Below are positions 969-44,939 of a DNA stretch of 64,000 bases, one piece after another. The notes beneath the pieces were generated by a model. That model was not told the origin of the DNA, searched no databases, and saw only the letters and a program-made list of their open reading frames with translations. The stretch lies in NCBI RefSeq assembly GCF_000328475.2, contig NC_026482.1:124001-188000 (forward strand), written 5' to 3'. The position numbers and the translations under genes were made by a program. The DNA is from Mycosarcoma maydis (taxonomy: Eukaryota; Basidiomycota; Ustilaginomycetes; Ustilaginales). The number at the start of each line of letters is the position of its first letter. Position 1 is the stretch's first letter.

Positions 969-2678
969 ATGTCGTCGACGTTTCTCGCGAGTAACTCGAT
1001 TGTCAACACGTACAACGGTACCTCTGCGTCTGGCGCGCCTCCGTCGGCGGACGAACCGTTGTTTGCGCCCATCTCGTCGTCTTCCAACCCGAATTCGTCG
1101 CGAGTATGCTACTTTTTCGACTCAGACATTGGCAACTACCACTACGGTCCTGGCCATCCGATGAAGCCTACGCGCATCCGAATGTGTCACTCGCTGGTGA
1201 TGAACTACGGTCTATACAAGCGCATGGAGATCTTCCGAGCCAAACCTGCCACGAAGCGCGAAATGTCGCAGTTCCATACGGACGAGTACGTCGAGTTTCT
1301 GAACCGAGTGACACCGGATAACGTGGACTCGTTTGTTCGAGAACAGGCCAAGTTCAACGTTGGCGACGACTGTCCCGTATTTGACGGCCTGTTCGAGTAC
1401 TGCTCGATCTCGGCGGGTGGGTCGATGGAGGGAGCCGCGAGGCTGTCGCGCGACAAATGCGATATCGCCATCAACTGGGCGGGCGGATTGCACCATGCCA
1501 AAAAGGGCGAAGCAAGCGGATTCTGCTACATCAACGATATCGTTCTCGGAATCCTCGAGTTGCTCCGCTACCATCCGCGTGTTCTGTACATCGACATTGA
1601 CGTGCACCACGGCGACGGTGTCGAAGAAGCGTTCTACACTACGGACCGCGTCATGACTTGCAGCTTTCACAAATACGGCGAGTTCTTCCCTGGCACAGGC
1701 GAACTAAGGGACATTGGCATCGGTAAAGGCAAGATGTACTCGTGCAATTTCCCGCTTCGCGACGGCATCACGGATGAGAGCTACAAAAGCGTGTTTGAAC
1801 CCGTCATCTCTCAGATCATGCAGCACTACCAGCCATCCGCGGTGGTGCTTCAGTGCGGTAGCGATTCGTTGGCGGGAGACAAGCTGGGATGTTTCAATCT
1901 ATCGATGCGAGGACATGCCAACTGCGTCGAGTACGTCAAGTCGTTCGGACTACCATTGCTGTTGTTGGGCGGAGGCGGATATACGATGCGCAACGTCAGT
2001 CGCGCCTGGGCATTCGAGACTGGACTCGCTGCCGGTCAGGAGTTGAACGCTCAAATCCCGGTGAACGAATACTACGAATACTTTGGGCCGGACTATCGGT
2101 TGGATGTTCGGCCGAACAACATGCAAGACCTCAACACGCGCGAGTATCTGGAAAAGATCAAGATCCAAGTGTTTGAGAATCTGCGTCAGACGGCACATGC
2201 GCCTTCGGTACAGGGGCATGTGGAGCCGCGCAGTATTGTCGAGTCGATGCATTTGCAACATGTCAACGGCGACATGGAGGAGCGCATCGATTTGGGCGAC
2301 AAGAACGGAATGCAGATCTTGGACGACAAGTATCCCGACGAGCGGCTTGTAGACACGCGTGAGTTTCAGGACCACTCTACGCGCGCCGACGAGTTGGACC
2401 GCGACGCCAGAGCGAATCCGACTCGGATCGACGACGCTGTCCACGCTCGTGCTGCACGACCCGCTCTGGCAGACTCTCGCAACCCCACCGCAGATCCTAG
2501 CGAGCACGCCATCGATGAGCAGATCCAGGCCGACGCCATGGCGAAACTACTCGCTCCTAAACCCACCCTACAAGCCGAGCATCCGCTCTCGTCATCCGCT
2601 CAACCCGCCCACACCCCTAACAGCCACCAACCATCACACTCCCCAACACCACCCGCCCCCAATCCGCCACACCCATAA
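969..2678 (+). CDS. rpd3: Class I histone deacetylase, Rpd3 type
   Basis: This 569-residue protein is a zinc-dependent lysine deacetylase expected to act in nuclear corepressor complexes. The deacetylase domain starts near residue 42 ([20 protein letters not shown]) and runs to about residue 400. The metal-binding and active-site segment DIDVHHGDG lies at residues 209-217, preceded by [16 protein letters not shown] and followed by the GGGGYTMRN loop. The similarity is to Rpd3 rather than Hos2 or Hda1 of yeast. I chose the ATG at 969 because GCCACCATG is an optimal context and the next in-frame upstream start is poor. The C-terminal 150 residues are acidic and then Pro/Ser-rich with no recognisable domain. 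One small oddity is QCGSDSLAG where the family usually has QCGGDSL. U. maydis literature names RPD3-class genes hda1/hda2; I cannot say which this is. Confidence 0.95.
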
Positions 2679-2952
2679 CCCCCCCCCCTTCCCCTCGCGC
2701 TTCCAACACCCACACATCTTTGTTTTCTCCGAGCCTCTCCTGTACGTTTCGTCCATTGTTGTTTCGTTCAATCCGCTTTTCTCGCACACCTTGGTACTGC
2801 ACTCGCTCACGCTCGTACATCAGTCTTGACACTTGAACGCACGCGAGCGCTCGCATGCACACGCTATCTGGAGTCGAACGCTTGATTGCAGTGACACAGT
2901 GCGCAAAGAGCGTGTCAACGTAAACGCGACGTGCGCGGTGCACGGTGCACGA

Positions 2953-5900: not shown

Positions 5901-7761
5901 TCATGAGACTGCTGAACGGACCTTGCACGTTGCCGGCCATATCTCTGTAGAGCCACAAGGATGTTTCTGGGGACCAGGACGTGGCCGACTGCAAGGTTGG
6001 GAGTGGCATGTTGCTGGAATGGTGCGGATGAGATTGATCAAAGTGATCTCTGACGTCGCGTTCTCGAGGAAAGTCGTCGGCATTGTTTGCCAAGTTTTGT
6101 TCTGGAGCGAGAGCAGAAGCGGAAGGCAGGGCGGGGCTGTCGTCTTCATCAAGTTTGAGTGAACCCAGCACGGCCGAAGCGTGCTGAGCTAGGTCTGGAT
6201 CGTCGCTGCCAAGGGTGGATTCGCCTGTCCCCGCGTTCTGTTTGACAGGCGCCTGGGTCTCGACGATGGCACCTTCAGTGGGGTCCTGGCCTGCATCAGT
6301 AACGCCCACAGCGGAGCCAATACTGGCTGCGGCATTGTCGCCTTTTGAAGCGTGGGGCTGCAGGAGCCTAGCTTGACTGGTCTGGCGCTCGCGTCGGCGG
6401 TCCAAGCCGGAAGACTTACCAAAGCCGATGCTACCATCGGAAGGAGGCCCGATGGGGCCTTCACCGGGCAGACGATCCTTGTGACGCGCAAAGCGAGCAG
6501 AGATGCTGAGTCCCTCGGAGTTTCCACTGGGTACGATGGGCTGCGAAGGCTGGGAGCAGTCGGTCGAATGCGGCGCGGCGGAAGCAGCAGTAAGAGGAGC
6601 CGCATCGGCAGCTGCCGATGCATTGCGGCCTCTCACGCGATTTGAGCTGAAAGCATCCGAGAAGGCACCCAGCACACCGCCTCCAGTGCCCACAGCATTG
6701 GGATGTGCCGTCGAATTCTGCGTCGAGCGACCCCAAGAGCCTGTTGCGGCAGAACCGTTGGTGGTCTGCGAGGCGCTGATCTCGTCCTGACTACCTCTGA
6801 GCGAGCGGCCGGAACGAGGAGCGTCTACAGTGCCGGCAGCACCGTCGCTGCTGTCCATCCTCTTGCGTGCGGGTGGAGCAACAGCCGAGAGAACGCCGCC
6901 TTGGATGCCGCTAAAGCGATCGCGCGAGACCGAAGGCGAGAGAGGACGAGAGCCAGAGTTGGATGTCACACCAGCCAAAGCGCCACTTGAAGCGCGCTGG
7001 AAGAGACCCGGACGCTCCTTTTCCGCCTTGTCCCAGGTCGAGCCAACCGCAGATCCAAAACCTCCCGTCGAGCTGCCCGAGGTAGAGCGTGCGTTGAGTC
7101 CACGCGGCTCATTCGCATTCAGGCCGGGTGAGAGGGGACCACCGCCCACAGCACCAAGCTCGGTAAAGGCAGACGGGCGGCGATCAGATGCGCCTTTTCT
7201 GCGGGAGGTGCTGGCGGGATGCTCAGCACCGGAACCGGAACCAGCGCCAGGCGCAACCGAATCCACCGGCGACGGCTCTGCGCTAGGTACCTTGCTAGTA
7301 CGGTCCGAGCTATACAAGCTCAACAGCTTTTCGCGTGTCACCTTGTCCTTTGCCAGTGCTGCCGAGCTTCCATTGAGCAAAGCCGCCGAGCCATCGCCGT
7401 CGTGACCGCTCCAGGTGCCATGCTGAGCAGAAGAATGCGTGCCATTTCGATTCGAGGTTTGCGCGGTGGCCGCAGCCGCAGCGGCAGCAAACGAGAATGC
7501 GCCTGGACTGATCACCGCGGGACTGACAACAGGTGTTGGACCAGACAAGTTTCCAAGCCCGTTTGATCCGCCATTGCGCTTGCCAACGCCAGCATTGGCG
7601 CCAGTGCTACCGTTGCCGGCGATGGCGTTTCCAGCGACAGTGCCTGTGCCTGGGCTGGTAGCAGCTGAAGTTGTGGTCGAAATGGAAGTTTCTTTTCCTC
7701 CCGATTTGCTGTTAGGACCTTTGCGCATCCACTCGGGACCGAATTGCATTGAAGTTGCCAT
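2953..7761 (-). CDS. GYF-domain protein, Smy2/GIGYF-like
   Basis: This 1602-residue, largely disordered protein has a GYF domain at about residues 590-650 (the segment containing SLWLYRDMAGNVQGPFSS and MQDWYSQQYF). GYF domains bind proline-rich peptides; the Smy2/Syh1/GIGYF group works in translational repression, mRNA decay and ER-Golgi traffic. The N-terminus carries FGPEWMRKG and a TREKLLSLY segment resembling conserved N-terminal motifs of the group. Other parts are a Gln/His-rich tract near residues 700-740, a Lys/Ala/Glu-rich probable coiled coil around 1210-1240, and a conserved folded-looking C-terminus (PSPEFIKYCKDNLQG onward). The start codon lies in ACACCATGG, a good context. It converges with the deacetylase gene, leaving 274 bp between their stop codons. 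No intron is needed. Confidence 0.88.
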   Translation of the reverse strand: MATSMQFGPEWMRKGPNSKSGGKETSISTTTSAATSPGTGTVAGNAIAGNGSTGANAGVGKRNGGSNGLGNLSGPTPVVSPAVISPGAFSFAAAAAAATAQTSNRNGTHSSAQHGTWSGHDGDGSAALLNGSSAALAKDKVTREKLLSLYSSDRTSKVPSAEPSPVDSVAPGAGSGSGAEHPASTSRRKGASDRRPSAFTELGAVGGGPLSPGLNANEPRGLNARSTSGSSTGGFGSAVGSTWDKAEKERPGLFQRASSGALAGVTSNSGSRPLSPSVSRDRFSGIQGGVLSAVAPPARKRMDSSDGAAGTVDAPRSGRSLRGSQDEISASQTTNGSAATGSWGRSTQNSTAHPNAVGTGGGVLGAFSDAFSSNRVRGRNASAAADAAPLTAASAAPHSTDCSQPSQPIVPSGNSEGLSISARFARHKDRLPGEGPIGPPSDGSIGFGKSSGLDRRRERQTSQARLLQPHASKGDNAAASIGSAVGVTDAGQDPTEGAIVETQAPVKQNAGTGESTLGSDDPDLAQHASAVLGSLKLDEDDSPALPSASALAPEQNLANNADDFPRERDVRDHFDQSHPHHSSNMPLPTLQSATSWSPETSLWLYRDMAGNVQGPFSSLMMQDWYSQQYFADDLLVKRHEDVDFKPLAQVVAGVGNALQPFLIPPMAWLHPPALARSAFDPKAGASDSLLSNEQSRFTDSFDRTWPGQSGRPQQQSQQLQQQQHQSHQQGWPAPLNLGGLTNVAPSPASPFGRHDIFSAGQSGLRNQDDLISILRERELHEQRQAAAASASRGPGGMHLGQLDSFGAGLGRSGWGNESAMPPSHWGAGIGHGALGQFGDVGLGGHQSPHVGDRPVFESFGHQQRQNFDQNGSPWSNKASLNAPRSQLDSMRPAQHGQWGEQQAPWNYSATTPDVSNRQIDFSEAVLRNEAIKAADPIGTPRRARSPAPQHDHDVTQAQQQAGEHIDELHKSFENAFPAPAQEAQNSVDMPSVASSAAAPGVTSDDLEVKAPKETELEAITEADKTATTPQNKSSKKETQKATAAAAVAAVSPTISAAQDAPVTAKSIDSEIPPPEAFTTGEPRPEELWPQSPKAVEFAPEPELSSVPALTISSNKSAKDSKRESRSGLQRQSSDVSRIVSGSGEPANRAAGAAARSTVSGNVRVVSQEQFRRGTPSASTATQQVPLSDWINDGSSAEPSAPASRPAPWAAAKDEAPQPTGPSLREIQEAEAKRAEAKRAAEKAAARARMAASPSAVEDLPTTLSWGLASAPASASKNVSNSAATSSGSGANEAAPAAPAPFAPAWNAGKTAPKKTLMEIQEEERKRAEKLKAQQSAQAIALRKGYADSASRSTSASNLHGSVVGSSTNAGGGGAWSVVGASGKSSAPSTPSGGASAGSAGYGTSTGSPLTTRAPTASRATSSVATSSAGSAWSVVGARASNAPASPSPLPSPASRISASTSSMPASKPTRLSTDPNAPSPEFIKYCKDNLQGLTIKTDDFIDMLLQFPLDPSGDVIEIIADTVYANSSTLDGRRFANDFVTKRKMDVQGRGAVARTNGAIGNLATSKSGAPKNAHSDKWPHALASDTGFKLVKGKGAKAKRS

Positions 7762-21710: not shown

Positions 21711-24700
21711 ATGGACGACGCGATACCGAGCGGCATCAATGGCCGCTCGGTCCTCGGCCCTCGTCAGGACAGCGATCAAGACATGCTCAACAAAGGCAAC
21801 ACCGACATCTCGCCCTCTTCCTCATCCACCCGCCTCCATGGCCTCTACGACACCTCGCGTCTCAAGTCCTACTTTCGTTCACTGCTTCCTCTTCTGCTCG
21901 ACTCGGATGCTGACCTCTTATCCAGCCTCCTTCTCGACACGCCGGAATGGAAAGAGCTAGCCTCGGCATTCGCTGGTGATCCCGCTATCACCACCGCTTA
22001 CGTTAACAAGATCCGTCGTCAAGACGTCTCCTCCGACGCGCCCGAACATGAACTTTTCGAGTATCACATGTCTGCACAGGCTTCCTACTCTTCGCTGCAC
22101 GTGTCTAGCATTGCCCTTGTCAAACGTGTCCCTGTGCTCGATCCCACTGTGCCCTTGCCACATCAACTTCACGTGCTTACCCTCTTCGGTCCAGCAGCCG
22201 CCTCTTCCGCTTCCGCTTCCGCTTCCACCGCCCCGGCAACGCCAGCCTCAACTGAAGCAGATACTCCTAGTCTGCATCCAACCAACAACGCTGTCGCCAA
22301 TCTCGACCATGCCGACACTTCATCGGCCGCTTCAGCTGTCCGTGAAAGTCCCTACGAAGCGCTGCACAGCGTCGTCCACAACGTCATGTCGCCCTGGTTT
22401 GACGCCTTTGTAGCCAGCAAAGCGCCCAAGGACAAGCCGCTCCTCTCGGGCGCAAAATCAAAGGACAGCGACGCAAAAATGGGCATTCCCATGGCAAAAC
22501 GCAAATTTGCCGAGCTCGAGCTCAGTCTGTTCCATCTGCAGCAGAACGTCGAGATCCCCGACATCATCCTCACCATTCACCCTGTCGTGCGTGCCGCCGT
22601 CGATCGATGCCATGCTGCCGCCACCCGCGTTAGGGTCGAGGCCGTCGAGCCCGCCTCTCTTCTCCAAGACTCGTCCTTCCTCAACAAGCTCCAGTCCGAC
22701 GTCAACTCGTGGGTCAAAGAGGTCCAGACCATCACCAAGCTTGACCGTAGCGTCGCTTCCGGCACCGCTTCTCAAGAGATCAATTTTTGGCTCTCCATGG
22801 AAAAGGCCCAAGAATCCATCGAGCAGCAGCTTCGCTCCGATCCCATCGTGCTCACTCTCGACATTCTCAAGCACGCAAAGCGCTTCCACGCCACCGTCTC
22901 GTTCCTCGCCGACACTGGCCTCAAGGACTGTGCCGAAAAAACGCACAACTACAACCTTTTGATGAAAGACTTTCCTATCAACGAGCTCCTCTCCGCTACC
23001 GATCTCGACAAGTGCGCAGACGCTCTCGGCGCCATCTTCAATCACCTCAACAAGAAGCTCCGCATCAGCCCCTACCCAGTCAAACGTGCGCTCCCCCTCG
23101 TGGAAGCCATCAGCAGAGATCTCAACGATACGCTTCTCAAGGTGCTTGCATCTCAACGCATCATGTGGCAAGACTTTTCGCGCTTCTGGGACACCGTATC
23201 TGCTGCCGCCGAGGTCTTTCATGTTTGGGACGAGCTCATGAAGGATTTTGTCAACATCGCCAGAGAGGTCACCCGCAAGCGCTCCGAAAAGTTCCTCCCC
23301 ATCAAGATTAACCCAGCCCACGCAAAGCTCCGCGAGCGTCTCAACTACATTGGCGCCTTCCGCAAGACGCATGAGCAGTTGCGCGCCATGGTCAGCTCCG
23401 GAAAAGGTCTCGCCATGTCTGGTGCTAACAACGCTGCAGCCGCTTCTTCCAACGACAGACACGTCGCTACCCAGAATCTCGCAGGCATCGAGATGAGCGA
23501 AGAGATCCGCGCCGCCTACGACCAGGTCAAGGTCATCGATGTGCTCGATGTCTCCAACGAGGGCACCGAGATCTGGACCACTGCTGAAGCCGCCTACAAC
23601 GAGCGCGTTGCGCGTGTCGAAAACAGCCTCATCGCGCGCTTGCGACACTTGCTCGGCCAGGCCAAGTCTGCTCGCGAGATGCTGCGCGTCCTCTCCCAAT
23701 TTAACAGCCTCTTTGTGCGTCCCAAGGTACGCGGCGCCGTCCAAGAATACCAGCAACAGCTGCTCAACAGCGTAAAGTCCGACATCAAGGCGTTGCACGA
23801 CAAGTTCAAGGCTCAATACCGTCCCTCGGAAGCCAACCACATGAGCCAACTCCGCGACGTTCCCGAAATTGCCGGCGCCATCATCTGGGCCCGCCAGATC
23901 GAGCGTCAGCTCAACGTCTACATGAAGCGCGTCGAGGATGTGCTCGGTAAGGGCTGGGAACTTTACGCAGAGGGTCAGAAGCTGCAGACCGAAAGCGAAA
24001 CCTTCCGTCGCAAGCTCGACACAAGGCCTCTCTTCGACAGCTGGCTGCACGACATCAATCGCAGAGACATGAGCATCGCCGGCCGCGTCTTTGACGTCAC
24101 CAAGAACCGCGCTGCCGGCAACGCGTTCCAGCTCAGCGTCAACTTTGACGGTCACACAATCTCACTCTTCAAAGAGGTACGCATCTTGATTTGGCTCAAC
24201 TTCCAAATCCCGCATGCAATCACCAACCTCGCCAAAGACGCCAAACGTGTCTACCCGCACGCCGTATCGCTCATGGAGACGGTCCGCACCTACAACCAGA
24301 CCTGCAGCCTGGTCCGTGCCAACCCCGAGATCACTTGCCTCATCGCTCAGGTCTACACCGATGCGCACCAACTCATCTCGCAAGGCATGACGTTGCGTTG
24401 GGAGCACTTTGCCAATATCTACGAGAGTTCTCGTGCAGCATCCTACCTGCCTGGTTCCAGTGGCGAGCCTGGCCGCGAGAATCGCCAGATTGCGTTTGTG
24501 CGTCAATTTGCCAGCGTTGTCAGCCTCTTCCAGGACAAGACGGCCGAGCTTATCGAGATTCAGCGCGACATGCACTCCACCATCGACGAGCTTGCAAAGT
24601 GCCAGTATCGCACCGACGCTTTTGCGCAACGACTCCAAAAGATCCAGGACACCATCGACAAGCTCAACCTCGAAGGCTATCCCAACCTCGAAGAGTGGGT

Positions 24701-27700
24701 GGGCAATCTCGACCGTCTTATTGAAGACGTGCTGCTGCGCAGGCTCAAGTCGGTCAGCATGGCATGGTGCCGCGCTTTTGTTCGACCCGGTTCGAGCCCG
24801 AGTGGTCCCAATGCTGGCTCGGTACGTGGCGATCGAGGACTCCAGAGCATCGCCAACGGCGCCACCGGCCCTGTAGATGGCCAAGCAGGTGCAGCACCCG
24901 ATCAGATCGTCTTGGAGCCCATCACCCATGAAGTGCGAATCCAAAATCAAGTCATCTTCCTCGACCCGCCCCTTGAGAACGCGCGAGCTTCGTGGTTCCG
25001 ACAGCTGCACGAGGTTCTTTCCGTGGTCTGCTGCCTCAACCGAGTTCAGAGCTCGCGCTACGAGATTGGTCTCCAGATGCGTGGCAAGCAGCAAACCACG
25101 CAGCAAGACTACGCTTCGCTACTCACCCGCTTCCAGGACGACTCACTCACACGACCTTTTGTCCTGATCGAGGCCAAACTGGCCGAGGTCGGAAGCTACG
25201 TGTCCAAATGGCTTCAGTTCCAGTCGCTCTGGGATCTCGAGTCCGAGCATGTCTTTGCACGCCTCGGCGATTCGCTCGCCAACTGGCAACAGCTCCTCGC
25301 CGAAATTCGTCGCACGCGTGCTACCTTCGACAATTCGGACACGCAGCGCTCGTTCGGCATCTGCGTCATCGACTATGATCAGGTGCAGAGCAAGGTCAAT
25401 GCCAAATACGATACCTGGCAGCGCGACATTCTCAATCGCTTTGGCACCAAGCTCGGGGCTGCCATGCGAGAGGTGCATGCTACCGTAGCCAAGGCGCGTG
25501 TCGAGCTCGAGCAGCACAGCATCGAGGGCAGCTCAACCGCACAGGCCGTCACTTTTATCACCTTTGTTCAGGACCTCAAACGCAAGACCAAGGTGTGGCA
25601 GCCCCAGATCGAGCTCTTTGGCACAGGCCAAAAGACGCTCGAGCGCCAGCGCTACATGTTCCCACAGGATTGGCTGTACGTCGACCAGGTTGATGGCGAG
25701 TGGAGTGCGTTCCAGGAGATTCTTGGCCGAAAGAATGCCAGCATCCAGGAACAGCTTGCCGGTCTGCAGATGAAGATCATTGCCGAAGACAAGATTGTCA
25801 GCGACAAGATGTCCACCGTCATCAGCGAGTGGGAGCAGCAGAAACCCATCCAAGGCACGCTCAAAGCCGACGGCGCTATGAACACCATCAATGTCTTTGA
25901 AACACGAGTCTCCAAGCTCGCCGAAGACCGTGCGCTGGTGGTGCGCGCAAAGGAGGCTCTCGACCTGGAGCATACGCAGGACGACCGCCTCGAACCCGTC
26001 TTTGAAGAGTTGCGCGACCTCAAGACGGTGTGGACCGCACTCTCCGGAACGTGGAGCCAGCTTGCCGAGATCCGAGACACAAATTGGAACAACGTTCAGC
26101 CGCGAAAGCTTCGACAGCAGCTCGATGCATTGCTCGCACAGACGCGGGACATGCCCAGCCGAATGCGCCAGTACGCCGCTTTCGAGTACGTCCAGGAGCA
26201 CGTGCGTGCTCTGCTTAAAAGCAATCCTGTCATCTCTGATCTCAAGTCCGAGGCGATGCGTGAGCGTCATTGGCGCTCGCTCTTTAAACAACTCAAGGTG
26301 CAGGAACACTACTCGGCCAGTAGCATGATGCTTGGCACCGTCTGGGATCTTGATTTGAAAAGGCATGATGCCATCGTCAAGGCGGTTGTCGCTCAGGCCC
26401 AGGGAGAGCTGGCGCTCGAAGAGTACCTCAAGCAAGTGCGTGAAGCGTGGACCAACTACACGCTCGATCTTGTCAACTACCAAAATAAGTGTAGGCTCAT
26501 CCGCGGCTGGGACAATCTCTTCCAGCTTGCCGGTGACAACCTCAACGCGCTGCGAGCTATGTCCATGAGCCCGCACTACAAGGTGTTCGAAGAGGAAGCC
26601 TCGCTCTGGGAAGACCGGCTGTCCAAAATCTCGGTCCTTTTTGATACCTGGATCGACGTCCAGCGACAGTGGGTTTATCTCGAGGGCATCTTCACCAGCA
26701 GTGCCGAGATCCGCCACATCCTGCCCGTCGAGAGTTCGCGTTTCCAGAACATCAACACCGAGTTCCTCACCGTGATGAAAAAGGTGTACAAGTCGCCCTT
26801 TGTGCTCGATGTGCTCAACATTCCTGGCGTGCAAAAGAGTCTCGAGCGTCTGGCTGACCTGCTCAGCAAGATTCAAAAGGCGCTTGGAGAGTATCTGGAA
26901 CGCGAACGTGCCAACTTTCCGCGCTTCTACTTTGTCGGTGACGAGGATCTCCTCGAAATCATCGGCAACTCCAAGGACACGGCGCGCATCCTCAAGCACC
27001 TCAAGAAAATGTTTGCCGGCATTGCTACGATCGAATTTGACGAGGAGGCAGGCAAGTTGATGGCCATGGTCAGTAGGGAAGGCGAGACCGTGCCCTTCCG
27101 CACGCCTATCTCGCTTAAGGACCATGCCAAGATCAACGACTGGCTTGCGAAAGTGGAGAGCGAGATGCGCATCTCGCTTGCCGAGCTTCTGTCGGAGGCT
27201 GCCGCTGAACTCGAGTCGTTCTATACTAGCATCGAGTTGCTGACGCTCGATTCCTTCCTTGCGTGGATCGCAAAGTATCCCGCGCAACTGGTGGTTCTGG
27301 CTGTGCAAGCTCGGTGGACCGCCATGGTGGACGAGGCCTTTGAGAGCGGCGCCGGTCTGCAGCATCCGCTCGACGTCGTGCTGCGTGGACTCGACCTGCT
27401 CGCCGACACGGTGCTGACCGATGTCGAGGCACTGCAGCGCCGCAAATGCGAGCACCTCATCACTGAGCTAGTCCATCAGAGGGATGTGATTCGTCTGTTG
27501 GTCTCGCAGCGTGTCGAGAGCGCTCGCGATTTCAACTGGCTCTCGCAGATGCGCTTCTACCTCAATCGTCAGATCGAAAAGCCGCTCGACAGGCTCACGG
27601 TTCAGATGGCCAACGCAACATTCCCTTACGGCTATGAGTACCTCGGCGTGCCTGACCGCCTCGTTCAGACGCCTCTGACCGACCGTTGCTACCTCACGCT

Positions 27701-30700
27701 CACACAGGCGCTCCACTACAAGCTTGGCGGTGCCCCGTTCGGTCCCGCAGGTACGGGTAAGACCGAGTCGGTCAAAGCGCTCGGCGTCCAGTTGGGAATG
27801 TTTGTAATTGTCTTTTGCTGTGACGAGACATTTGATTTCCAAGCTATGGGTCGTATCTTTGTCGGTCTCTGCCGAGTCGGCGCATGGGGATGCTTCGACG
27901 AGTTCAATCGACTCGAGGAGCGCATCCTGTCGGCTGTCTCACAGCAGATCCAAAGCATCCAGCAAGGTCTGGCCGACTCGACAAGCGGCAGCAATACTAG
28001 CGGCAAGGAGATCGAGTTACTGGGCAAGCGCGTCTCTCTCAACGAACGTGTCGGTATCTTTATCACCACCAATCCAACATACGCTGGTCGATCCAACTTG
28101 CCCGACAATTTGAAGAAGCTCTTCCGTAATATGGCCATGACGCATCCTGATCGCGAGCTTATCGCCCAGGTGATGCTCTTCTCGCAAGGTTTCCGCACCG
28201 CTGAGACGCTGGCGTCCAAGGTCGTGCCGTTCTTCAACCTCTGTCTCGAGCAGCTCAGCCCCCAGCCACATTACGATTTCGGATTGCGAGCGCTCAAGGC
28301 GGTGCTCGTCAGCGCTGGCCAGCTCAAGCGAGAGCATATGCTGAATGGTGGCGACCAAGCCGAAAGTGCGCATGCCGCCGTATCGATCGACGTGTCGGAG
28401 CAGGAGATCTTGATCCAGAGCGTCTCCGAAACGATCGTGCCTAAGCTGATTGCCGAAGATGTACCGCTGCTCAAGAGCCTGCTGTCAGATGTGTTTCCCG
28501 GCGTCGAGTACAAGCCGGTCAACCTCGATGTGCTCCGCAACCACATTGCTGCTGTGTGCGCCGAGCGACATCTGGTCGAGGGCGGTCTGTGGACCGAAAA
28601 AGTGCTGCAGTTGTATCAGATCCAAAAGATCTCGCACGGTCTCATGCTTGTCGGACCGTCAGGTACTGGTAAAACGCAGGCCTGGCAGGTGCTGTTGGCG
28701 GCACTGGAGCGAATGGAGGGACAAGAGAGCGTTTCATACGTCATCGACCCTAAAGCTGTGTCGAAGGAGAGTCTCTACGGTACGCTCGACCCTACCACTC
28801 GAGAGTGGAACGATGGTCTGTTCACTCAGGTGCTGCGCAAGATCATCGACAACGTCCGTGGCGAGAGTGCGAAGCGTCACTGGATCGTATTTGATGGTGA
28901 TGTGGATCCTGAGTGGGTCGAGAACCTCAACTCGGTGCTCGACGACAACAAGCTGCTAACACTGCCCAACGGTGAACGTCTCAATCTGCCGCCCAACGTG
29001 CGTGTCATGTTTGAGGTCGAATCGCTGCGCTATGCCACGCTGGCTACCGTGTCGCGTTGTGGTATGATCTGGTTTAGCGATGATATTGTGCGCCCATCGA
29101 TGGTGTACACGAGGTACTTGACGGGTCTGCGCTCGACGCCGATCGAGCTGGACGATGACGGGCTGGCCAGCGCTGTAGCGTCACACAGGGCTGTCGCTGC
29201 GGGTAACGCCGCTTCTGCCACGGGAACGAACGAGGTCAGTCCAGATCTGCAAGTGCAAAGAGCCGTAGCCGACGCGCTGGCGCCCTTCTTCGAGGACGAC
29301 GGTCTTGTCAACGGAGCTCTCGAATTTGCCAGGACGGTGCCGCACATTATGGACTTTACCGAGGCTCGCGCGTTGTCGACGCTATTTTCGTTGATCAACA
29401 AGACGGTGCGCAACATCCTGGATTACAACACACAGCATCCCGACTTCCCGCTCGGTCCTGAACCGATTGAAGCGTATGCGACGCGCCGATTGCTGCTGGC
29501 GCTTGTCTGGGCGTTTACGGGCGATGCTAAGCTCGATGTGCGTGCACAGATGGGCGAGTATCTTCGCAACCACACTGGTGTCGATCTGCCGGCTCTCGGA
29601 CCGGGATCTTCGCTGATTGACTACGACGTGAGCTTTGCAGGTCAGTCGGTGGAATGGTCTTCGTGGCTGTCCAAGGTGCCTACAATCGAGATTGACACAG
29701 CGGCGGTGTCAACAGCCGACGTTGTGGTGCCGACCATTGACACGGTGCGACACGAAGACGTGCTGTACTCGTGGCTGTCGGAGCACAAGCCGCTCATGCT
29801 TTGCGGGCCTCCAGGCTCTGGTAAGACGATGACACTGTTCTCGGCGCTACGCAAGCTGCCGGACATGGAAGTGGTGGGACTCAATTTTTCGTCTGCCACC
29901 ACACCCGAGTTGATCCTCAAGACATTCGAGCAGTACTGCGAGTACCGCAAGACGCCGAACGGGATTGTGCTGTCTCCGACGCAGATTGGTCGCTGGCTGG
30001 TATTGTTCTGCGACGAAATCAACCTGCCGGCTACGGACAAGTACGGGACTCAGCGGGTCATCTCGTTCCTGCGCCAGCTGGTGGAGAGCGGCGGGTTCTG
30101 GAGGATCAGCGACAAGGCGTGGGTCAAGCTGGAGCGCATCCAGTTTGTGGGTGCTTGCAATCCTCCCACGGATCCAGGGCGAGTGCCGCTCTCGCATCGA
30201 TTCCTGCGCCATGCGCCGCTGATCATGGTGGACTATCCCGGTGAGATCTCGCTGAATCAGATCTACGGTACGTTTAACCGCGCGCTGTTGAAGGTGACGC
30301 CGAATCTGCGCGGCTATGCGGAGGCGTTGACGGCGGCCATGGTGGATTTCTACTTGGCTTCGCAGCGGAGGTTTACGCCGGACATGCAGGCGCACTACAT
30401 CTACTCTCCGCGAGAACTGACGCGCTGGATGAGGGGTATATACGAGGCGATCAAGCCGTTGGAGAGCCTGAATGTGGAAGGACTGGTGCGCGTGTGGGCA
30501 CACGAAGGGCTTCGGCTGTTCCAGGATCGATTGGTGGGGACCGAAGAAAAGGCGTGGACGGATGCACAGATTGACGCGGTGGCAGCATCGCGCTTCCCGA
30601 CACTGGACATTGGGTCGGCACTGGCGCGACCGATATTGTTCAGCAATTGGTTGAGCAAGGAGTACCGGAGCGTGGATCGCGAGTCTGTGCGCGAGTATGC

Positions 30701-31310
30701 CAAGGCGCGCTTGAAGGGGTATTCGGACGAGGAGTTGGATGCGAAGCTGGTGCTGCACGATTCCGTGTTGGATCTGGCGCTGTCGTGCGATCGGGTGTTG
30801 CGCCAGCCTGCGGGGCATTTGTTGTTGATAGGAGCGTCCGGGTCGGGGCGTACGACGGTGACGCGCTTCTGCGCATGGCTGCGCGGTCTATCGCTCTTCT
30901 CGATCAGCACATCCAACAAGTACACTGAAGACAATTTCGACGACGATCTGCGCGCTCTTCTGCGTCGTGTTGGCTGTAAGGCCGAAAAGGTCTGTTGGAC
31001 AATCGACGAATCGCAAATGTCGAACCCGGCGCGTCTTGAAAAACTCAACACGCTCCTCGCCAACGCCGAAGTCGCCGGCCTCTTCGAAGCCGACGAACTC
31101 ACCTCGCTCATCACCCAGCTCAAAGACGCCGCATCCCGCACCGGCCTCCTCCTAGACACCCACGACGAACTCTTCTCCTTCTTCCGCAACCAGATCACCG
31201 CCAACCTCCACGTCACCCTCACCATGAACCCCCCCCACTCCGCCACCGCCGCAAAGGCCGCTGCTTCCCCCGCCCTCTTCAATAGGACCAGCATCATGTT
31301 CTGCTGGTAA
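21711..31310 (+). CDS. dyn1: Cytoplasmic dynein heavy chain, N-terminal half (tail to AAA4)
   Basis: The 3199-residue product carries the dynein tail, the linker and four AAA+ modules. P-loops are GPAGTGKT at residue 2011 (AAA1), GPSGTGKT at 2315 (AAA2), GPPGSGKT at 2699 (AAA3) and GASGSGRT at 3041 (AAA4). Walker B segments are CFDEFNRL, IVFDGDVDP, LFCDEINLP and WTIDESQ. The frame stops directly after the AAA4 segment SPALFNR, a place where ordinary heavy chains continue into the stalk, AAA5 and AAA6 for about 1200 more residues. None of that is found in the window. U. maydis is known to encode its cytoplasmic dynein motor as two polypeptides, Dyn1 (this half) and Dyn2 (stalk and C-terminal modules), both needed for function; this gene fits Dyn1. 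The start ATG at 21711 follows CAACCATCCCC; the upstream in-frame start is TTG. No introns. The AAA4 Walker A Lys is Arg. Confidence 0.96.
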   Translation: MDDAIPSGINGRSVLGPRQDSDQDMLNKGNTDISPSSSSTRLHGLYDTSRLKSYFRSLLPLLLDSDADLLSSLLLDTPEWKELASAFAGDPAITTAYVNKIRRQDVSSDAPEHELFEYHMSAQASYSSLHVSSIALVKRVPVLDPTVPLPHQLHVLTLFGPAAASSASASASTAPATPASTEADTPSLHPTNNAVANLDHADTSSAASAVRESPYEALHSVVHNVMSPWFDAFVASKAPKDKPLLSGAKSKDSDAKMGIPMAKRKFAELELSLFHLQQNVEIPDIILTIHPVVRAAVDRCHAAATRVRVEAVEPASLLQDSSFLNKLQSDVNSWVKEVQTITKLDRSVASGTASQEINFWLSMEKAQESIEQQLRSDPIVLTLDILKHAKRFHATVSFLADTGLKDCAEKTHNYNLLMKDFPINELLSATDLDKCADALGAIFNHLNKKLRISPYPVKRALPLVEAISRDLNDTLLKVLASQRIMWQDFSRFWDTVSAAAEVFHVWDELMKDFVNIAREVTRKRSEKFLPIKINPAHAKLRERLNYIGAFRKTHEQLRAMVSSGKGLAMSGANNAAAASSNDRHVATQNLAGIEMSEEIRAAYDQVKVIDVLDVSNEGTEIWTTAEAAYNERVARVENSLIARLRHLLGQAKSAREMLRVLSQFNSLFVRPKVRGAVQEYQQQLLNSVKSDIKALHDKFKAQYRPSEANHMSQLRDVPEIAGAIIWARQIERQLNVYMKRVEDVLGKGWELYAEGQKLQTESETFRRKLDTRPLFDSWLHDINRRDMSIAGRVFDVTKNRAAGNAFQLSVNFDGHTISLFKEVRILIWLNFQIPHAITNLAKDAKRVYPHAVSLMETVRTYNQTCSLVRANPEITCLIAQVYTDAHQLISQGMTLRWEHFANIYESSRAASYLPGSSGEPGRENRQIAFVRQFASVVSLFQDKTAELIEIQRDMHSTIDELAKCQYRTDAFAQRLQKIQDTIDKLNLEGYPNLEEWVGNLDRLIEDVLLRRLKSVSMAWCRAFVRPGSSPSGPNAGSVRGDRGLQSIANGATGPVDGQAGAAPDQIVLEPITHEVRIQNQVIFLDPPLENARASWFRQLHEVLSVVCCLNRVQSSRYEIGLQMRGKQQTTQQDYASLLTRFQDDSLTRPFVLIEAKLAEVGSYVSKWLQFQSLWDLESEHVFARLGDSLANWQQLLAEIRRTRATFDNSDTQRSFGICVIDYDQVQSKVNAKYDTWQRDILNRFGTKLGAAMREVHATVAKARVELEQHSIEGSSTAQAVTFITFVQDLKRKTKVWQPQIELFGTGQKTLERQRYMFPQDWLYVDQVDGEWSAFQEILGRKNASIQEQLAGLQMKIIAEDKIVSDKMSTVISEWEQQKPIQGTLKADGAMNTINVFETRVSKLAEDRALVVRAKEALDLEHTQDDRLEPVFEELRDLKTVWTALSGTWSQLAEIRDTNWNNVQPRKLRQQLDALLAQTRDMPSRMRQYAAFEYVQEHVRALLKSNPVISDLKSEAMRERHWRSLFKQLKVQEHYSASSMMLGTVWDLDLKRHDAIVKAVVAQAQGELALEEYLKQVREAWTNYTLDLVNYQNKCRLIRGWDNLFQLAGDNLNALRAMSMSPHYKVFEEEASLWEDRLSKISVLFDTWIDVQRQWVYLEGIFTSSAEIRHILPVESSRFQNINTEFLTVMKKVYKSPFVLDVLNIPGVQKSLERLADLLSKIQKALGEYLERERANFPRFYFVGDEDLLEIIGNSKDTARILKHLKKMFAGIATIEFDEEAGKLMAMVSREGETVPFRTPISLKDHAKINDWLAKVESEMRISLAELLSEAAAELESFYTSIELLTLDSFLAWIAKYPAQLVVLAVQARWTAMVDEAFESGAGLQHPLDVVLRGLDLLADTVLTDVEALQRRKCEHLITELVHQRDVIRLLVSQRVESARDFNWLSQMRFYLNRQIEKPLDRLTVQMANATFPYGYEYLGVPDRLVQTPLTDRCYLTLTQALHYKLGGAPFGPAGTGKTESVKALGVQLGMFVIVFCCDETFDFQAMGRIFVGLCRVGAWGCFDEFNRLEERILSAVSQQIQSIQQGLADSTSGSNTSGKEIELLGKRVSLNERVGIFITTNPTYAGRSNLPDNLKKLFRNMAMTHPDRELIAQVMLFSQGFRTAETLASKVVPFFNLCLEQLSPQPHYDFGLRALKAVLVSAGQLKREHMLNGGDQAESAHAAVSIDVSEQEILIQSVSETIVPKLIAEDVPLLKSLLSDVFPGVEYKPVNLDVLRNHIAAVCAERHLVEGGLWTEKVLQLYQIQKISHGLMLVGPSGTGKTQAWQVLLAALERMEGQESVSYVIDPKAVSKESLYGTLDPTTREWNDGLFTQVLRKIIDNVRGESAKRHWIVFDGDVDPEWVENLNSVLDDNKLLTLPNGERLNLPPNVRVMFEVESLRYATLATVSRCGMIWFSDDIVRPSMVYTRYLTGLRSTPIELDDDGLASAVASHRAVAAGNAASATGTNEVSPDLQVQRAVADALAPFFEDDGLVNGALEFARTVPHIMDFTEARALSTLFSLINKTVRNILDYNTQHPDFPLGPEPIEAYATRRLLLALVWAFTGDAKLDVRAQMGEYLRNHTGVDLPALGPGSSLIDYDVSFAGQSVEWSSWLSKVPTIEIDTAAVSTADVVVPTIDTVRHEDVLYSWLSEHKPLMLCGPPGSGKTMTLFSALRKLPDMEVVGLNFSSATTPELILKTFEQYCEYRKTPNGIVLSPTQIGRWLVLFCDEINLPATDKYGTQRVISFLRQLVESGGFWRISDKAWVKLERIQFVGACNPPTDPGRVPLSHRFLRHAPLIMVDYPGEISLNQIYGTFNRALLKVTPNLRGYAEALTAAMVDFYLASQRRFTPDMQAHYIYSPRELTRWMRGIYEAIKPLESLNVEGLVRVWAHEGLRLFQDRLVGTEEKAWTDAQIDAVAASRFPTLDIGSALARPILFSNWLSKEYRSVDRESVREYAKARLKGYSDEELDAKLVLHDSVLDLALSCDRVLRQPAGHLLLIGASGSGRTTVTRFCAWLRGLSLFSISTSNKYTEDNFDDDLRALLRRVGCKAEKVCWTIDESQMSNPARLEKLNTLLANAEVAGLFEADELTSLITQLKDAASRTGLLLDTHDELFSFFRNQITANLHVTLTMNPPHSATAAKAAASPALFNRTSIMFCW

Positions 31311-31335
31311 TCGCGAATCTCCATCCTTCCATTCA

Positions 31336-33311
<1,976 letters not shown>

Positions 33312-37473: not shown

Positions 37474-40400
37474 ATGAGCGCTCCCATCACACAGGCCGAT
37501 TGGAACGCCAAGCTCAAACACGCACAGGACCAAGCACAACGAGCCACCAAGGCCGAACTCGCCCGCAATTACTCGGAAGCATTCGAGCTCTACGTGCGCG
37601 CGGGACAGCTCTTTGTCTGGCTGCTCGGAAACTTTCCCTCCACCAATCATCATCATGATTCCGCCATAGCGCCATCTCTGACGCGCGGTACGGCGCTGAG
37701 CACATCCAGCCCGCCAGCCGCCGATGGCTTGTCAGGTACATGTACCGCTCAATCCCGTCAACATCTAAAGCAGATGGCTACCAGGGTCATGGCGCGAGCC
37801 GAAAAGATAAAGGCCACATGCAAGCACCTTCGGCCGGTCGACCGTGATGCTTTGAGTCATGAAGAGCAATCCAGCGTCCTTGTCAGCTCGTCTCTCATCA
37901 ACGGCCTCCGATACCCCATATGGAAGGGTCCCCCTGCTCAGCTTCAGAACACAAATAGGTCGACATTCACTCAGGATGCACAGCCACCATTATCATCCAA
38001 CCAGATCCGCCAAGGTGCACTCTATCGACGGCCATCTTGGCTGAATGCCGGCGAAGACCAATGCTGGTCCACCAAGCTAAGTGGGTGTGATATTGTTCAG
38101 GATATTGTCACCGATTGCTCGTTCGTAGCTGCCCTCGAGGCTGCTGCACAGCACGATCGCATCTTTGGAGGGAACTTGGCAACATCAGCACTATACCCGC
38201 AAGACTCATCCGGACGCATCCGACCCAGTGCAAATGGCCAGTATCACGTCAAGCTGCACATCAACGGTACACCACGTGTCGTATTGATCGATGACCATCT
38301 CCCTTATTATCCAGCCGCTTGCCCTATTTCACAACCGACCACAACTGCAACTGCAACTGCGGCAACATCAAGTAAATCGAATGCACACAAGCAGCGCCTC
38401 ATGTGCGCAAGCTCGCGTGATGGCCATGCTGTTTGGCCAGCTCTGCTCGAGAAAGCTTACCTCCAAGTCATGGGCGGCTACGAATTCGCTGGATCCAACG
38501 GTAGCATCGATCTGTACGCTCTTACAAGCTGGTTGCCAGAACACATCTTTCTACGACACGCCGGCTTCCAACGCGAAAGATCGTGGACCAGGTTCCACAC
38601 CGCTTGGAATGCTGGTCAATGTATGGCTACAGCTGGCACAGGAAAAGCACCGCCTCGCAAGCAGCGCAGCGGTGAATCCATGTCGGAGGACTCACTAGCC
38701 ACCATCACGCTTGATTCGGGCCTTATCTCGAGCCATAACTATGCAATCCTCGATGTGCGCACCCATGGTAGTCGCCGCTACGTCAAGCTGATGAATCCTT
38801 GGCGCACAGCAGCTGGTATCCGGCCAGCGATTGCCATCTCGACAGAAGAAGAGCGGCGCATCTATGCCGATTCTGCCTCCTGCAATTCCTCGCTCGTGGC
38901 GCGGCTTGGCCATGTGAGATTGCAAGAGGCTGGTGAGCTAGATGAAAATTCATTGACCTTCACACTCTCATGGGACGACTTTTGCAGTCATTTTGACTCG
39001 CTGTTTCTGAATTGGGACCCCAAATTGTTCAGCAACAACGTCACTGTACACTCGAGCTGGCGGGGTAGCGCTTCGGCTTCGTCTGCGCTGGGCTCCAAGC
39101 AAGCAGATCCGCATTTCAGATTGTCTGTCACCGCTCCACCGAGCATTTCTACAAGCAGTACAGATCCCGCTGCTGAAGTATGGCTCCTACTCACTCGTCA
39201 CATTACCAACACGCAACCGATTCAGCGCAGCGCAGACGGGTCGCAACAGAGTGCAGAAGAGACTCCTGCAGAGTATATTGCGATACATGCGTTTCAAGAA
39301 GATCAACAAACCTCGGAAACCGCACAGCTGGCTTCGACTTCGGCTCTTCTCCTGCGCAAAGCCAAGCACAAAGGTGCCTACGTCGACGGAACACACTGCC
39401 TTGTCCGTCTCAAGCCCTCTTTTCCCCGTGACAATACGTCGATGCAGCCAAGCTCGTCCGATACCGGCAGTAAGCAAACAAAGGGGCAATGCAGCTTCAC
39501 CGTCGTTGTGTCGCGCCGGAACGAAGCTGATGCGACACCTTCATCGACTGCTGTCCAAACCAAGGATACACACAGGGACGTCAACTACACACTCTCGGTC
39601 TTTTCTCGCTATTCGATGGAGCTGTCGGAGCTGCGTACCCGGTTGCCCTACTGTGACTCGGTCAGTGGTGCCTGGACCGCACGCACTGCAGGGGGCAATG
39701 CCACTCTGGGCTCGTTCATGAGTAACCCACAGTACTCATTGGTGGTACCTGCTGGGCCGGGCGAAGTGCAACTGCAGGTGATGCTCGAGTCCTCGGACCG
39801 GCGGATCCCGGTCCAGGTGCTGCTGGCGTATCCGGGCGCTGGAACGGGACGTGTTACACACCTCACCGAGGGAGATGTAGTACTCAGCAGTGGAATGTAC
39901 CACCACGGCTTGGCGCTTTGCTGCACGTCACGTCCAGGTGCTCCGGGCGCAGTGCTTCGGCCGGGCACCTATACACTGATCGCATCGACGTTCGAAGCTG
40001 GCATGCAAGACGACTTTGATCTGCGTGTTGAAAGCACTCGCCCGATCCAGTTGAAGTGGATCGCACAAGAGGGGGCTGGCATGTTTCACCGGCGTCTGGT
40101 GTCATCCTGGAAGCGCGGCTTGAATGCGTGTGGGTCTCGCGCAAACAAGGCGTATTTTGAGAATCCCGCCTGGCGATTCACGATCGACAGGCCGGGGCTG
40201 ACCGACTTGGTCGCGAGGATCAAGGTCGAGGCGGTGCGCTCGACCGATCCGGTTCGACCGTATATCCAGCTTGCGCTATTTGTCCTTGATGAGGCGAGGT
40301 GCTGGGAACAGGTTGCGAGTAGTGGTGCGTATACGGATCTCGTATGTGGAGCAGCTATCGAGAAGGTCAGGCTGCAACAGGGATGTTACACGTTGGTTGC

Positions 40401-40482
40401 ATCTACGCTTCAGCCTGATACCGAGGCTGAGTTCGGCGTGGATCTGTATACAGCCGTCAAGGTCGATATTGTTGGCGTGTGA
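37474..40482 (+). CDS. rim13: Calpain-like cysteine protease of the PalB/Rim13 type
   Basis: This 1002-residue protein starts with a probable MIT domain (about residues 5-80, KLKHAQDQAQRATKAELARN), which binds ESCRT-III. The calpain catalytic domain follows: Cys215 in VTDCSFVAAL, His421 in SSHNYAIL and Asn441 in LMNPW, the order expected of the C2 family. C-terminal beta-rich domains follow, to residue 1002. PalB/Rim13 is thought to cleave the transcription factor PacC/Rim101 on endosomes at alkaline pH. The full triad suggests an active enzyme. The start at 37474 (GTGACATGAGC) matches the beginning of the MIT helix. The stop codons of this gene and the convergent helicase gene are only 81 bp apart. 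Confidence 0.9.
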   Translation: MSAPITQADWNAKLKHAQDQAQRATKAELARNYSEAFELYVRAGQLFVWLLGNFPSTNHHHDSAIAPSLTRGTALSTSSPPAADGLSGTCTAQSRQHLKQMATRVMARAEKIKATCKHLRPVDRDALSHEEQSSVLVSSSLINGLRYPIWKGPPAQLQNTNRSTFTQDAQPPLSSNQIRQGALYRRPSWLNAGEDQCWSTKLSGCDIVQDIVTDCSFVAALEAAAQHDRIFGGNLATSALYPQDSSGRIRPSANGQYHVKLHINGTPRVVLIDDHLPYYPAACPISQPTTTATATAATSSKSNAHKQRLMCASSRDGHAVWPALLEKAYLQVMGGYEFAGSNGSIDLYALTSWLPEHIFLRHAGFQRERSWTRFHTAWNAGQCMATAGTGKAPPRKQRSGESMSEDSLATITLDSGLISSHNYAILDVRTHGSRRYVKLMNPWRTAAGIRPAIAISTEEERRIYADSASCNSSLVARLGHVRLQEAGELDENSLTFTLSWDDFCSHFDSLFLNWDPKLFSNNVTVHSSWRGSASASSALGSKQADPHFRLSVTAPPSISTSSTDPAAEVWLLLTRHITNTQPIQRSADGSQQSAEETPAEYIAIHAFQEDQQTSETAQLASTSALLLRKAKHKGAYVDGTHCLVRLKPSFPRDNTSMQPSSSDTGSKQTKGQCSFTVVVSRRNEADATPSSTAVQTKDTHRDVNYTLSVFSRYSMELSELRTRLPYCDSVSGAWTARTAGGNATLGSFMSNPQYSLVVPAGPGEVQLQVMLESSDRRIPVQVLLAYPGAGTGRVTHLTEGDVVLSSGMYHHGLALCCTSRPGAPGAVLRPGTYTLIASTFEAGMQDDFDLRVESTRPIQLKWIAQEGAGMFHRRLVSSWKRGLNACGSRANKAYFENPAWRFTIDRPGLTDLVARIKVEAVRSTDPVRPYIQLALFVLDEARCWEQVASSGAYTDLVCGAAIEKVRLQQGCYTLVASTLQPDTEAEFGVDLYTAVKVDIVGV

Positions 40483-43337: not shown

Positions 43338-44939
43338 ATGGCGCAAAGCAGTGACACCACCGCTCGCAAAACTGGAGTATCAAAGTACATCTCCACTCAC
43401 CCCTCGTTTCAAGACGCACGATCCTCCTCTTCACCGCTTCCTGCGTTATATTCGGATCTGTCTCGACAACGTAGATCTAATCCGGCAGGGTATCGTGCCA
43501 GCGTCGAGTGGTGGAAAGACGTTCTTGTGGATGTCACCTTTCGCGGTCTACAGTTCGACCATGATGCATCCACTCCATCTGAAGCAGACTCTCGACCGAG
43601 CTGTACGACTGCCGTGGTGGACCGAACAGTGTTTCGACTGGACGAGTCCACCAAGGCGCGCTGGACAGTCGAGCATGTCGGGCGACCGCTTGGACTCGGT
43701 ACCGTGATTGCGGAGCTCGAGAGCGAACATACTGTCTATCCGCTTTCCACGTATCTGAGATCTTCTACACCGGTTCCTCTTGCTTCGTCGCTGTCTCCAG
43801 CACGTGCCGGTATGCGCATGTACATGCCCACCGCAAGCGGTGTTGCTTCAACGCTGATCTTGACACCTGCGCGCTGGGCGGCGTCTTCGCTGTACTCGCT
43901 CGTCGTCGGCTCCAACATGGACGATGACGACGCTGATAGTGCTGACCAACAGCTGTTTCGCGCCAAGCGCGGCGACTGGGTCTTGCTTGCGCTAGTGCAT
44001 CGTCTTGCCACCACCTTCTTGACGCACTTCTACGCTAACCAAGCGCTTCTCAGCCCCGTCGCGTGTCTGATGACGTGCGATGAGTTTACGCTCAAGTTGG
44101 TCGAGGTTTGTTGGAAATCTTTTGCGTTTGCTCCCAGCGCACGCGATGTTGAGCTGGTCTTGACGTTTCTCTCACGAGATTGTTCGCCAAGGCTGGTAGT
44201 GAAGCAAGGTGGACTGGTCAAGCTGTCATCTACGCAAACTGAAGCGGTCCAACCGATCAGTCAAGAAGACCGATCGATTATCACAGTCAAAGAGACACTT
44301 GGCAAACTTGACGTTCAAATCAATTCGCTTTACGATCAAATTCGTAATCGCAACTCTGAAATCAAGTCTGCCCTGAACGCTTGCGAGAAGCGCAAAGCTC
44401 TCTCGCTGCTACACAGCAGAAAGGCGCTCGAAAAACAGCTCGAATCTCGCCAAGCGGTTCGCTCCAACTTGCGCCATGTGATGGACAAGATCGAAGAGGC
44501 CAAATCAGATGTCGAGGTGATCAAAGCGTTCCGAGCGGGCGAACAGGTGTTGCGCCACGTACTCAACAGCGACGAGATCAAGTTGGCGAATGTAGACAAG
44601 CTCATGGACGATTTCGGTGAGCTAATCGAGCGTCACGACCAAGTGCACAATGCCATGGCAATATCTAGTCAGTTCGAGGACCTAGATCAAGATCAACTCA
44701 TCGACCAACTCAATGCGTTGGAGGCCGAGAAACGCGAGGATGAACTACGAGAAAAGCACAAGCTGCACACCGACTCCAAGCCACTCCCACAACCACAGAC
44801 AGAACAGATGCAGTACGACGACCTACAAGCTCGACTCGACCGTCTCAGAGTATCTACTACTCCTCCACCCGCATCAACGCCATCCCAACAAGACAAGCAC
44901 TCCTCCACCAGTCAGTCTCATCCTGCCATCGCCGAATGA
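43338..44939 (+). CDS. chm7: CHMP7-like ESCRT-III protein
   Basis: This 533-residue protein has a poorly conserved N-terminal half, then a Snf7-type helical region at about residues 315-470 (VKETLGKLDVQINSLYDQIR onward), basic at first and acidic towards the end, as in ESCRT-III subunits. The length and the extra N-terminal domain fit CHMP7/Chm7, which recruits ESCRT-III to the nuclear envelope for sealing and pore surveillance. The ATG at 43338 (CAAGCATGG) is in good context; the earlier in-frame start is not ATG. The tail is Pro/Ser/Thr-rich. Snf7-group assignment is firm, CHMP7 less so. Confidence 0.82.
   Translation: MAQSSDTTARKTGVSKYISTHPSFQDARSSSSPLPALYSDLSRQRRSNPAGYRASVEWWKDVLVDVTFRGLQFDHDASTPSEADSRPSCTTAVVDRTVFRLDESTKARWTVEHVGRPLGLGTVIAELESEHTVYPLSTYLRSSTPVPLASSLSPARAGMRMYMPTASGVASTLILTPARWAASSLYSLVVGSNMDDDDADSADQQLFRAKRGDWVLLALVHRLATTFLTHFYANQALLSPVACLMTCDEFTLKLVEVCWKSFAFAPSARDVELVLTFLSRDCSPRLVVKQGGLVKLSSTQTEAVQPISQEDRSIITVKETLGKLDVQINSLYDQIRNRNSEIKSALNACEKRKALSLLHSRKALEKQLESRQAVRSNLRHVMDKIEEAKSDVEVIKAFRAGEQVLRHVLNSDEIKLANVDKLMDDFGELIERHDQVHNAMAISSQFEDLDQDQLIDQLNALEAEKREDELREKHKLHTDSKPLPQPQTEQMQYDDLQARLDRLRVSTTPPPASTPSQQDKHSSTSQSHPAIAE

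Follow-up and report, generated by a model that had tools for sequence, protein, structure and literature searches.

A dynein heavy chain divided inside AAA4 in Mycosarcoma maydis, with an altered ATP pocket at the break

Introduction

What kind of motor results when a dynein heavy-chain gene stops inside AAA4, leaving the rest of a six-module ring to be encoded elsewhere? Dynein carries cargo towards minus ends in the cell and is ordinarily one very large protein. The question is posed by a frame in a 64,000-nucleotide stretch of Mycosarcoma maydis (U. maydis) DNA, here called the window (NC_026482.1, positions 124,001 to 188,000). The original prediction, drawn from the letters of this DNA, took the frame for dyn1, placed the missing half elsewhere in the genome, and noted that the dynein of U. 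maydis consists of two polypeptides in one motor.

That last point is in print. The dyn1/dyn2 split is credited to Straube et al. (2001, EMBO J 20:5091) in PMC4540427 and PMC7373426, and the former cites the same authors for the presence of Dyn1 and Dyn2 in one complex in vivo and for the lethality of either knock-out. A Dyn2 triple-GFP fusion is called functional in PMC5415202, where minus-end-directed movement is reported. The prediction also called a AAA+ ring made of two chains very unusual; this holds, with the correction that three independent types of heavy-chain split are reported within Basidiomycota, the Ustilaginomycotina point being conserved (Brunsch 2015, PMC4540427).

The split itself is thus already published and is not new. 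What sequence comparison adds here is the exact cut, a divergence specific to AAA4, an arginine in the Walker A motif, the loss of 21 residues, and an unsplit sister, P0236. We propose, with a probability of about 0.9, that dyn1 encodes the N-terminal two thirds of the heavy chain and ends inside AAA4, that dyn2 elsewhere in the genome supplies the rest, and that the two chains would form one six-module ring through AAA4.

Materials and Methods

The genome searched comprises 27 contigs and 19,664,356 bases; the window is C5:124001-188000. Heavy-chain genes were sought with six dynein family profiles (PF12777, PF12781, PF03028, DHC_N2, AAA_6 and AAA_8). The comparison set contains 320 proteins taken from the best 120 of 2,303, the best 120 of 620 and the best 120 of 798 matches, and class labels were assigned from protein names. 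Identities were calculated against the dynein of Rhizophagus. Two trees were built, the second from 640 residues downstream of AAA4. The divergent protein P0235 appears in the first tree, on a long branch, and was left out of the second; eight Dyn2 proteins are missing from the first tree because of a motif filter, and five of these are in the second.

Results

The dyn1 frame and its modules

The frame occupies 21711 to 31310 on the plus strand of the window and encodes 3,199 amino acids from ATG to TAA without an internal stop. Its length, together with dynein homology along the whole of it, dismisses a chance origin. The closest relative in the PDB is human cytoplasmic dynein 1, which aligns over residues 212-3194 with a score of 3,621 bits, against 960 for dynein 2 and 934 for the best axonemal protein. 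The assignment to dyn1 of U. maydis, or of a nearly identical strain, agrees with P0003, a protein of equal length that is 100% identical over the searched part, and with six named relatives among the smuts whose identity there is 90-93%, all among the best 120 of 2,303 matches.

The Pfam families follow the order DHC_N1, DHC_N2, AAA_6, AAA_5, Dynein_AAA_lid, AAA_7, DYN_lid and a partial AAA_8. The tail (DHC_N1, E 9.8e-121; residues 324-900, 22680-24410) and the linker (DHC_N2, E 1e-130; residues 1428-1830, 25992-27200) are both present. They are followed by AAA1 (AAA_6, residues 1973-2322, 27627-28676), AAA2 (AAA_5, residues 2311-2448, 28641-29054), and AAA3 with its lid (AAA_7 and DYN_lid, residues 2665-2947, 29703-30551), all on the plus strand. 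The P-loops of these three modules are intact: GPAGTGKT at residue 2011, GPSGTGKT at 2315 and GPPGSGKT at 2699. The AAA_8 match, covering the large part of AAA4 (residues 3012-3198, 30744-31304), begins at profile position 2 and stops at position 187 of 259. On the opposite strand, within dyn1, lies a frame of 610 amino acids (25533-27365), probably a by-product of codon use.

The missing half of the heavy chain

The profiles for the stalk (PF12777), AAA_9 (PF12781) and D6 (PF03028) each match the genome once; the match lies on contig C14 in every case, and C5 has none. All three fall to dyn2, a frame of 1,596 amino acids at G000:C14:236173-240963 (2673-7463 of locus L002), whose Pfam content is the stalk, AAA_9, D6, AAA_lid_11 and C-terminal families. 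The stalk and microtubule-binding domain, AAA5, AAA6 and the C-terminus are thus all encoded in the genome and outside the window, as the original prediction had supposed. A tblastn search of the window with the small domain of an unsplit AAA4 gave no significant match (best E 2.3).

The division extends to a single profile, since AAA_8 is shared out between the two frames: dyn1 covers positions 2-187 and dyn2 covers 190-258, the latter piece scoring below the cut-off (E 0.003). DHC_N2 has a single match in the genome, and DHC_N2 and AAA_6 rise above the cut-off only in dyn1. Extra matches to AAA_8 and AAA_6 are weak and below the cut-off; they comprise the AAA4 piece of dyn2 and a 5,471-residue frame on contig C17 (G000:C17:528607-533184, minus strand). 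The latter, with its weak dynein AAA matches, is probably midasin.

No intact single-gene heavy chain, the finding that the prediction had named as fatal to a split, was detected by the six family searches of the 27 contigs. Three-frame translation and tblastn revealed no remnant of the small part of AAA4 past the dyn1 stop and no remnant of the large part before dyn2. Instead of one polypeptide there are two frames on two contigs, and their complementary domain content favours a two-chain motor. On this sequence evidence the cytoplasmic dynein 1 heavy chain is the pair of Dyn1 and Dyn2, and not Dyn1 alone.

The cut point

The original prediction had the frame stopping just past the sensor segment of AAA4, and the end can now be placed more exactly. 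Dyn1 closes with SPALFNRTSIMFCW, followed by TAA. The stop comes 7 residues past the arginine of an SPALFNR motif (31266-31286); the final seven codons, TSIMFCW, and the stop codon fill 31287-31310. Among the matches listed, Dyn1 ends 6-7 residues past SPALFNR in 18 distinct proteins, an agreement that is partly a selection effect because these were chosen for having ALFNR 3-9 residues from the end. In P0014 (Violaceomyces) the gene model departs from the common end point; this protein is included in the P-loop and AAA4 identity counts given below and not in the count of Dyn1 ends. On the other side of the break, 40 distinct Dyn2 proteins among the matches listed start with a leader of 8-73 residues, at most 13 in 34 of them, and then read GDW. 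Unsplit proteins carry SPALFNRCVLDWFGDW or a near variant at the junction. Almost no sequence is lost at the cut point itself.

In the human alignments, residue 3194 of Dyn1 corresponds to 3090 and residue 36 of Dyn2 to 3138; extension of the Dyn1 alignment puts the cut near 3093-3095 in human numbering. From the position in the AAA_8 profile and general knowledge of AAA+ proteins, we take the cut to follow the final strand of the AAA4 large subdomain, and hence to fall at the joint between the large and small subdomains.

Could the two halves be rejoined as RNA? Provided that the contigs are right, the location of dyn2 on a different one excludes splicing in cis to an exon further downstream. 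Trans-splicing would yield one normal heavy chain. By eye, the GT closest to the stop of dyn1 is in phase 2 and the AG immediately preceding the GDW of dyn2 is in phase 1; an origin of the two ends as splice sites was rejected on this account. The out-of-phase sites argue likewise against trans-splicing, as do the end and stop common to 18 distinct Dyn1 proteins among the matches listed and the citation of Straube et al. for two genes with products in a complex (PMC4540427). Nothing in favour of trans-splicing was found, and we regard it as very improbable.

Neighbouring genes

Convergent with dyn1 is a polyubiquitin gene (31301-33123, minus strand) of four units, the fourth with a frameshift. 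Adjoining it at an offset of about 697 bases is a partial duplicate, made of two intact units and a stop, and the 3' flank that the two share (90 bases, 93%) is present there again. The duplicate may stem either from unequal exchange or from an assembly fault. If the latter, this duplication 190 bases downstream would lend something to the idea that an assembly or sequencing artefact has cut one gene in two. That idea is refuted by the agreement of the compared proteins, since among the matches listed many independent species show the identical end and restart, and the split in U. maydis has been published by others (PMC4540427); it is hardly credible.

Further along the window lie a calpain with a MIT domain (37474-40482) and a Snf7-domain protein (43338-44939), both on the plus strand and separated by about 3 kb that include a helicase-domain frame. 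To our mind, the pair presumably recalls the Rim/Pal pH pathway.

Loss of 21 residues and divergence of AAA4

Beside the cut, the distance from GDW to the next motif is 101 residues in 183 of the 194 unsplit proteins measured, and 80 residues in 39 of 40 Dyn2 proteins (90 in the remaining one, P0166), among the matches listed. Human alignments of Dyn1 and Dyn2 give the identical difference of 21 residues.

Both parts of AAA4 have diverged. Among the matches listed, the large part is 57-72% identical to the reference in 19 split proteins and 78-100% in 195 unsplit ones, a number that counts the Rhizophagus reference itself. Measured against AAA3 of the same protein, it lies 12 to 26 points lower in 19 of 19 split proteins and 0-19 points higher in 137 of 137 unsplit ones. 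The small part, with gaps counted, is 25-41% identical in 40 Dyn2 proteins and 46-100% in 201 unsplit proteins among these matches; its difference from AAA5 runs from -43 to -23 in Dyn2 (n=40) and from -28 to +8 in unsplit proteins (n=196), with slight overlap. Median identities elsewhere are alike in split and unsplit proteins among the matches listed (stalk, 61 versus 62; AAA5, 76 versus 77).

Certain proteins blur these boundaries. Those outside the three classes give 72-88% for the large part (n=16) and 52-63% for the small part (n=18) among the matches listed, and P0240, an unsplit protein with SPALYNR, reaches, at 72% in its large part, the upper limit of the split range. Microstroma is low also in the linker and AAA1, and Sympodiomycopsis also in AAA5. 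P0235, which we guess to be Malassezia-like, is a very divergent Dyn2 with 25% identity in the small part of AAA4 and a changed small-domain arginine; its cut and spacing are unchanged.

Two Agaricomycetes proteins, from dyneins split elsewhere, show normal AAA4 conservation. The divergence of AAA4 is thus tied to a cut in AAA4 and not to splitting as such.

An unsplit sister and the date of the split

Comparison of the junction across smuts and other basidiomycetes, suggested with the original prediction as a means of dating the split, yields a common cut in the 18 Dyn1 and 40 Dyn2 proteins among the matches listed, and one unsplit sister. Since its columns all lie outside AAA4, the second tree is independent of the AAA4 traits linked to the cut. 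In it, 18 Dyn2 proteins form one clade (support 97/88) with the unsplit P0236, for which Moniliellomycetes would be our guess, as sister (support 100/98). P0236 reads through the junction without the 21-residue loss, and its AAA4 large part, of which 132 residues are present, is up to 97% identical to Agaricomycetes. A grouping of P0236 with four Agaricomycetes proteins was rejected (AU test, p 1.5e-36). Placement inside the split clade, which would imply re-fusion, is disfavoured by the tree, although the AU test does not reject it (p 0.0889 with Ustilaginomycetes, 0.0893 with Exobasidiomycetes); re-fusion would have to undo three things, namely the cut, the loss of 21 residues and the divergence of the large part.

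The simplest history suggested by these sequences would place a single cut and the changes in AAA4 together on the branch leading to the split clade, once P0236 had diverged. P0236 thus probably brackets the splitting event. The available portion of PMC4540427 reports no unsplit dynein, either within the Ustilaginomycotina group or in a close sister lineage.

The ATP pocket of AAA4

In the Walker A motif of Dyn1 AAA4, GASGSGRT (30831-30854), an arginine encoded at 30849-30851 replaces the usual lysine. Among the matches listed the arginine is present in 19 of 19 split proteins (18 of 18 Dyn1 and P0014), while the lysine is found in all 137 unsplit proteins, of 203, in which the pattern is readable, and also in P0240, which is outside the classes; these counts cover neither P0236, whose sequence begins past the P-loop, nor any Malassezia-like Dyn1. 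In four of the 19 split proteins among these matches (P0018, P0021, P0024 and P0041, Microstroma) the Walker A threonine has also become alanine. We found no report of the P-loop change in the literature searched, Straube et al. 2001 lying outside it.

Other elements persist. Among the matches listed, the Asp-Glu of Walker B is retained in 19 of 19 split proteins, the Asn of sensor I in 17 of 18 that are readable (it is lost in P0018), and the small-domain arginine of the PR motif in 38 of 40 Dyn2 proteins; AAA5 presents an arginine in 35 of these 40 and a lysine in 2, with 3 unread. We take the roles of all these residues, and of Walker A, from general knowledge. The pocket is thus altered at a key residue and not decayed, its components now lying on two polypeptides. 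With Walker B, sensor I and the AAA5 arginine in place, AAA4 does not seem simply dead.

What, then, does the arginine do? It is possible that ATP is bound and left unhydrolysed, stapling Dyn1 to Dyn2 and holding the AAA4 gate open. A Walker A arginine in every split protein listed, beside a Walker B and sensor I so widely kept, would be expected of such a static clamp. RAD51 K133R is described as an ATP-binding, non-hydrolysing protein (PMC10681713), although RAD51 is not a AAA+ protein of the dynein type. In yeast dynein, a block of AAA4 hydrolysis (E/Q) leaves movement at 89 against 110 nm/s and a block of binding (K/A) gives no motion (PMC7683685). The loss of the Walker A threonine speaks against the clamp in four of the 19 listed split proteins, where ATP binding should be weakened.

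Alternatively, AAA4 could be empty, its control of the motor lost and the module purely structural and drifting after the cut. The Walker A change, the threonine losses, the missing sensor I residue of P0018, and the divergence of both AAA4 parts would all suit such a drift, as would the statement that the Dictyostelium K/A mutant loses only 60% of gliding (PMC7683685). Against it stand the retention of Walker B and of the small-domain and AAA5 arginines in the proteins listed, and the immobility of yeast dynein without ATP at AAA4 (PMC7683685); we consider an empty site unlikely, though still worth weighing beside the clamp.

A third view, that arginine substitutes for lysine in an ordinary ATPase while the divergence is a refit to a new subunit interface, accounts for the retained catalytic residues and for changes that span both parts of AAA4, beyond the pocket. 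The lysine of all 137 readable unsplit proteins listed tells against it, since arginine seems not to be tolerated in the other proteins seen, and it appears rather improbable. On the strength of the yeast mutants and the lysine-to-arginine change in RAD51, the static clamp is favoured over both, at somewhat less than even odds.

Discussion

In the arrangement proposed, Dyn1 would end at the presumed joint between the large and small subdomains of AAA4, and Dyn2 would bring the small part, the stalk and microtubule-binding domain, AAA5, AAA6 and the C-terminal domain. Closure of the ring would be non-covalent, the large part of AAA4 on Dyn1 packing against the small part on Dyn2, and AAA4 may have become a static subunit interface that no longer cycles as an ATPase. 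A fuller version is more tentative than the clamp by itself: the Walker A change, the 21-residue loss and the cut at the large/small joint would all belong to one branch after P0236, and AAA4 would have become a two-chain clamp in which nucleotide without turnover staples the ring and leaves the gate permanently open.

One idea is that the cut separates two rigid portions of the ring. Older models described in PMC6600642 treat AAA2-AAA4 as a rigid body and would suit a cut here, but the data of that paper place AAA4s and AAA5L in the half that contains AAA4L; an explanation in terms of rigid blocks is therefore partly supported only.

The AAA4 of the smut relatives compared offers a natural experiment on a module whose role is disputed between yeast and Dictyostelium (PMC7683685), and an altered pocket at the very break makes that role testable. 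If AAA4 is static in smuts, its turnover would be dispensable in nature, and the cut would mark a site where the dynein ring can open and still work.

In the split itself we see no difference from the published Dyn1/Dyn2 of U. maydis: the gene, the break within AAA4 and the location of dyn2 elsewhere are all identical. The dhc1/dhc2 pair of Agaricomycetes and Dacrymycetes also comprises two genes, but the cut is in the tail, at residue 1180 (PMC4540427); the proteins shown retain the AAA4 P-loop lysine, and AAA4 identity is 92-93% in two of them among the matches listed. Wallemiomycetes likewise have two genes, but with the cut between AAA1 and AAA2 (PMC4540427), and the AAA4 P-loop is GVSGSGKT in both proteins seen among the matches listed. 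Human cytoplasmic dynein 1 has the same modules in the same order, but in one chain, with the AAA4 Walker A lysine present in the alignments shown and with a stretch from GDW to the following aligned part that is 21 residues longer.
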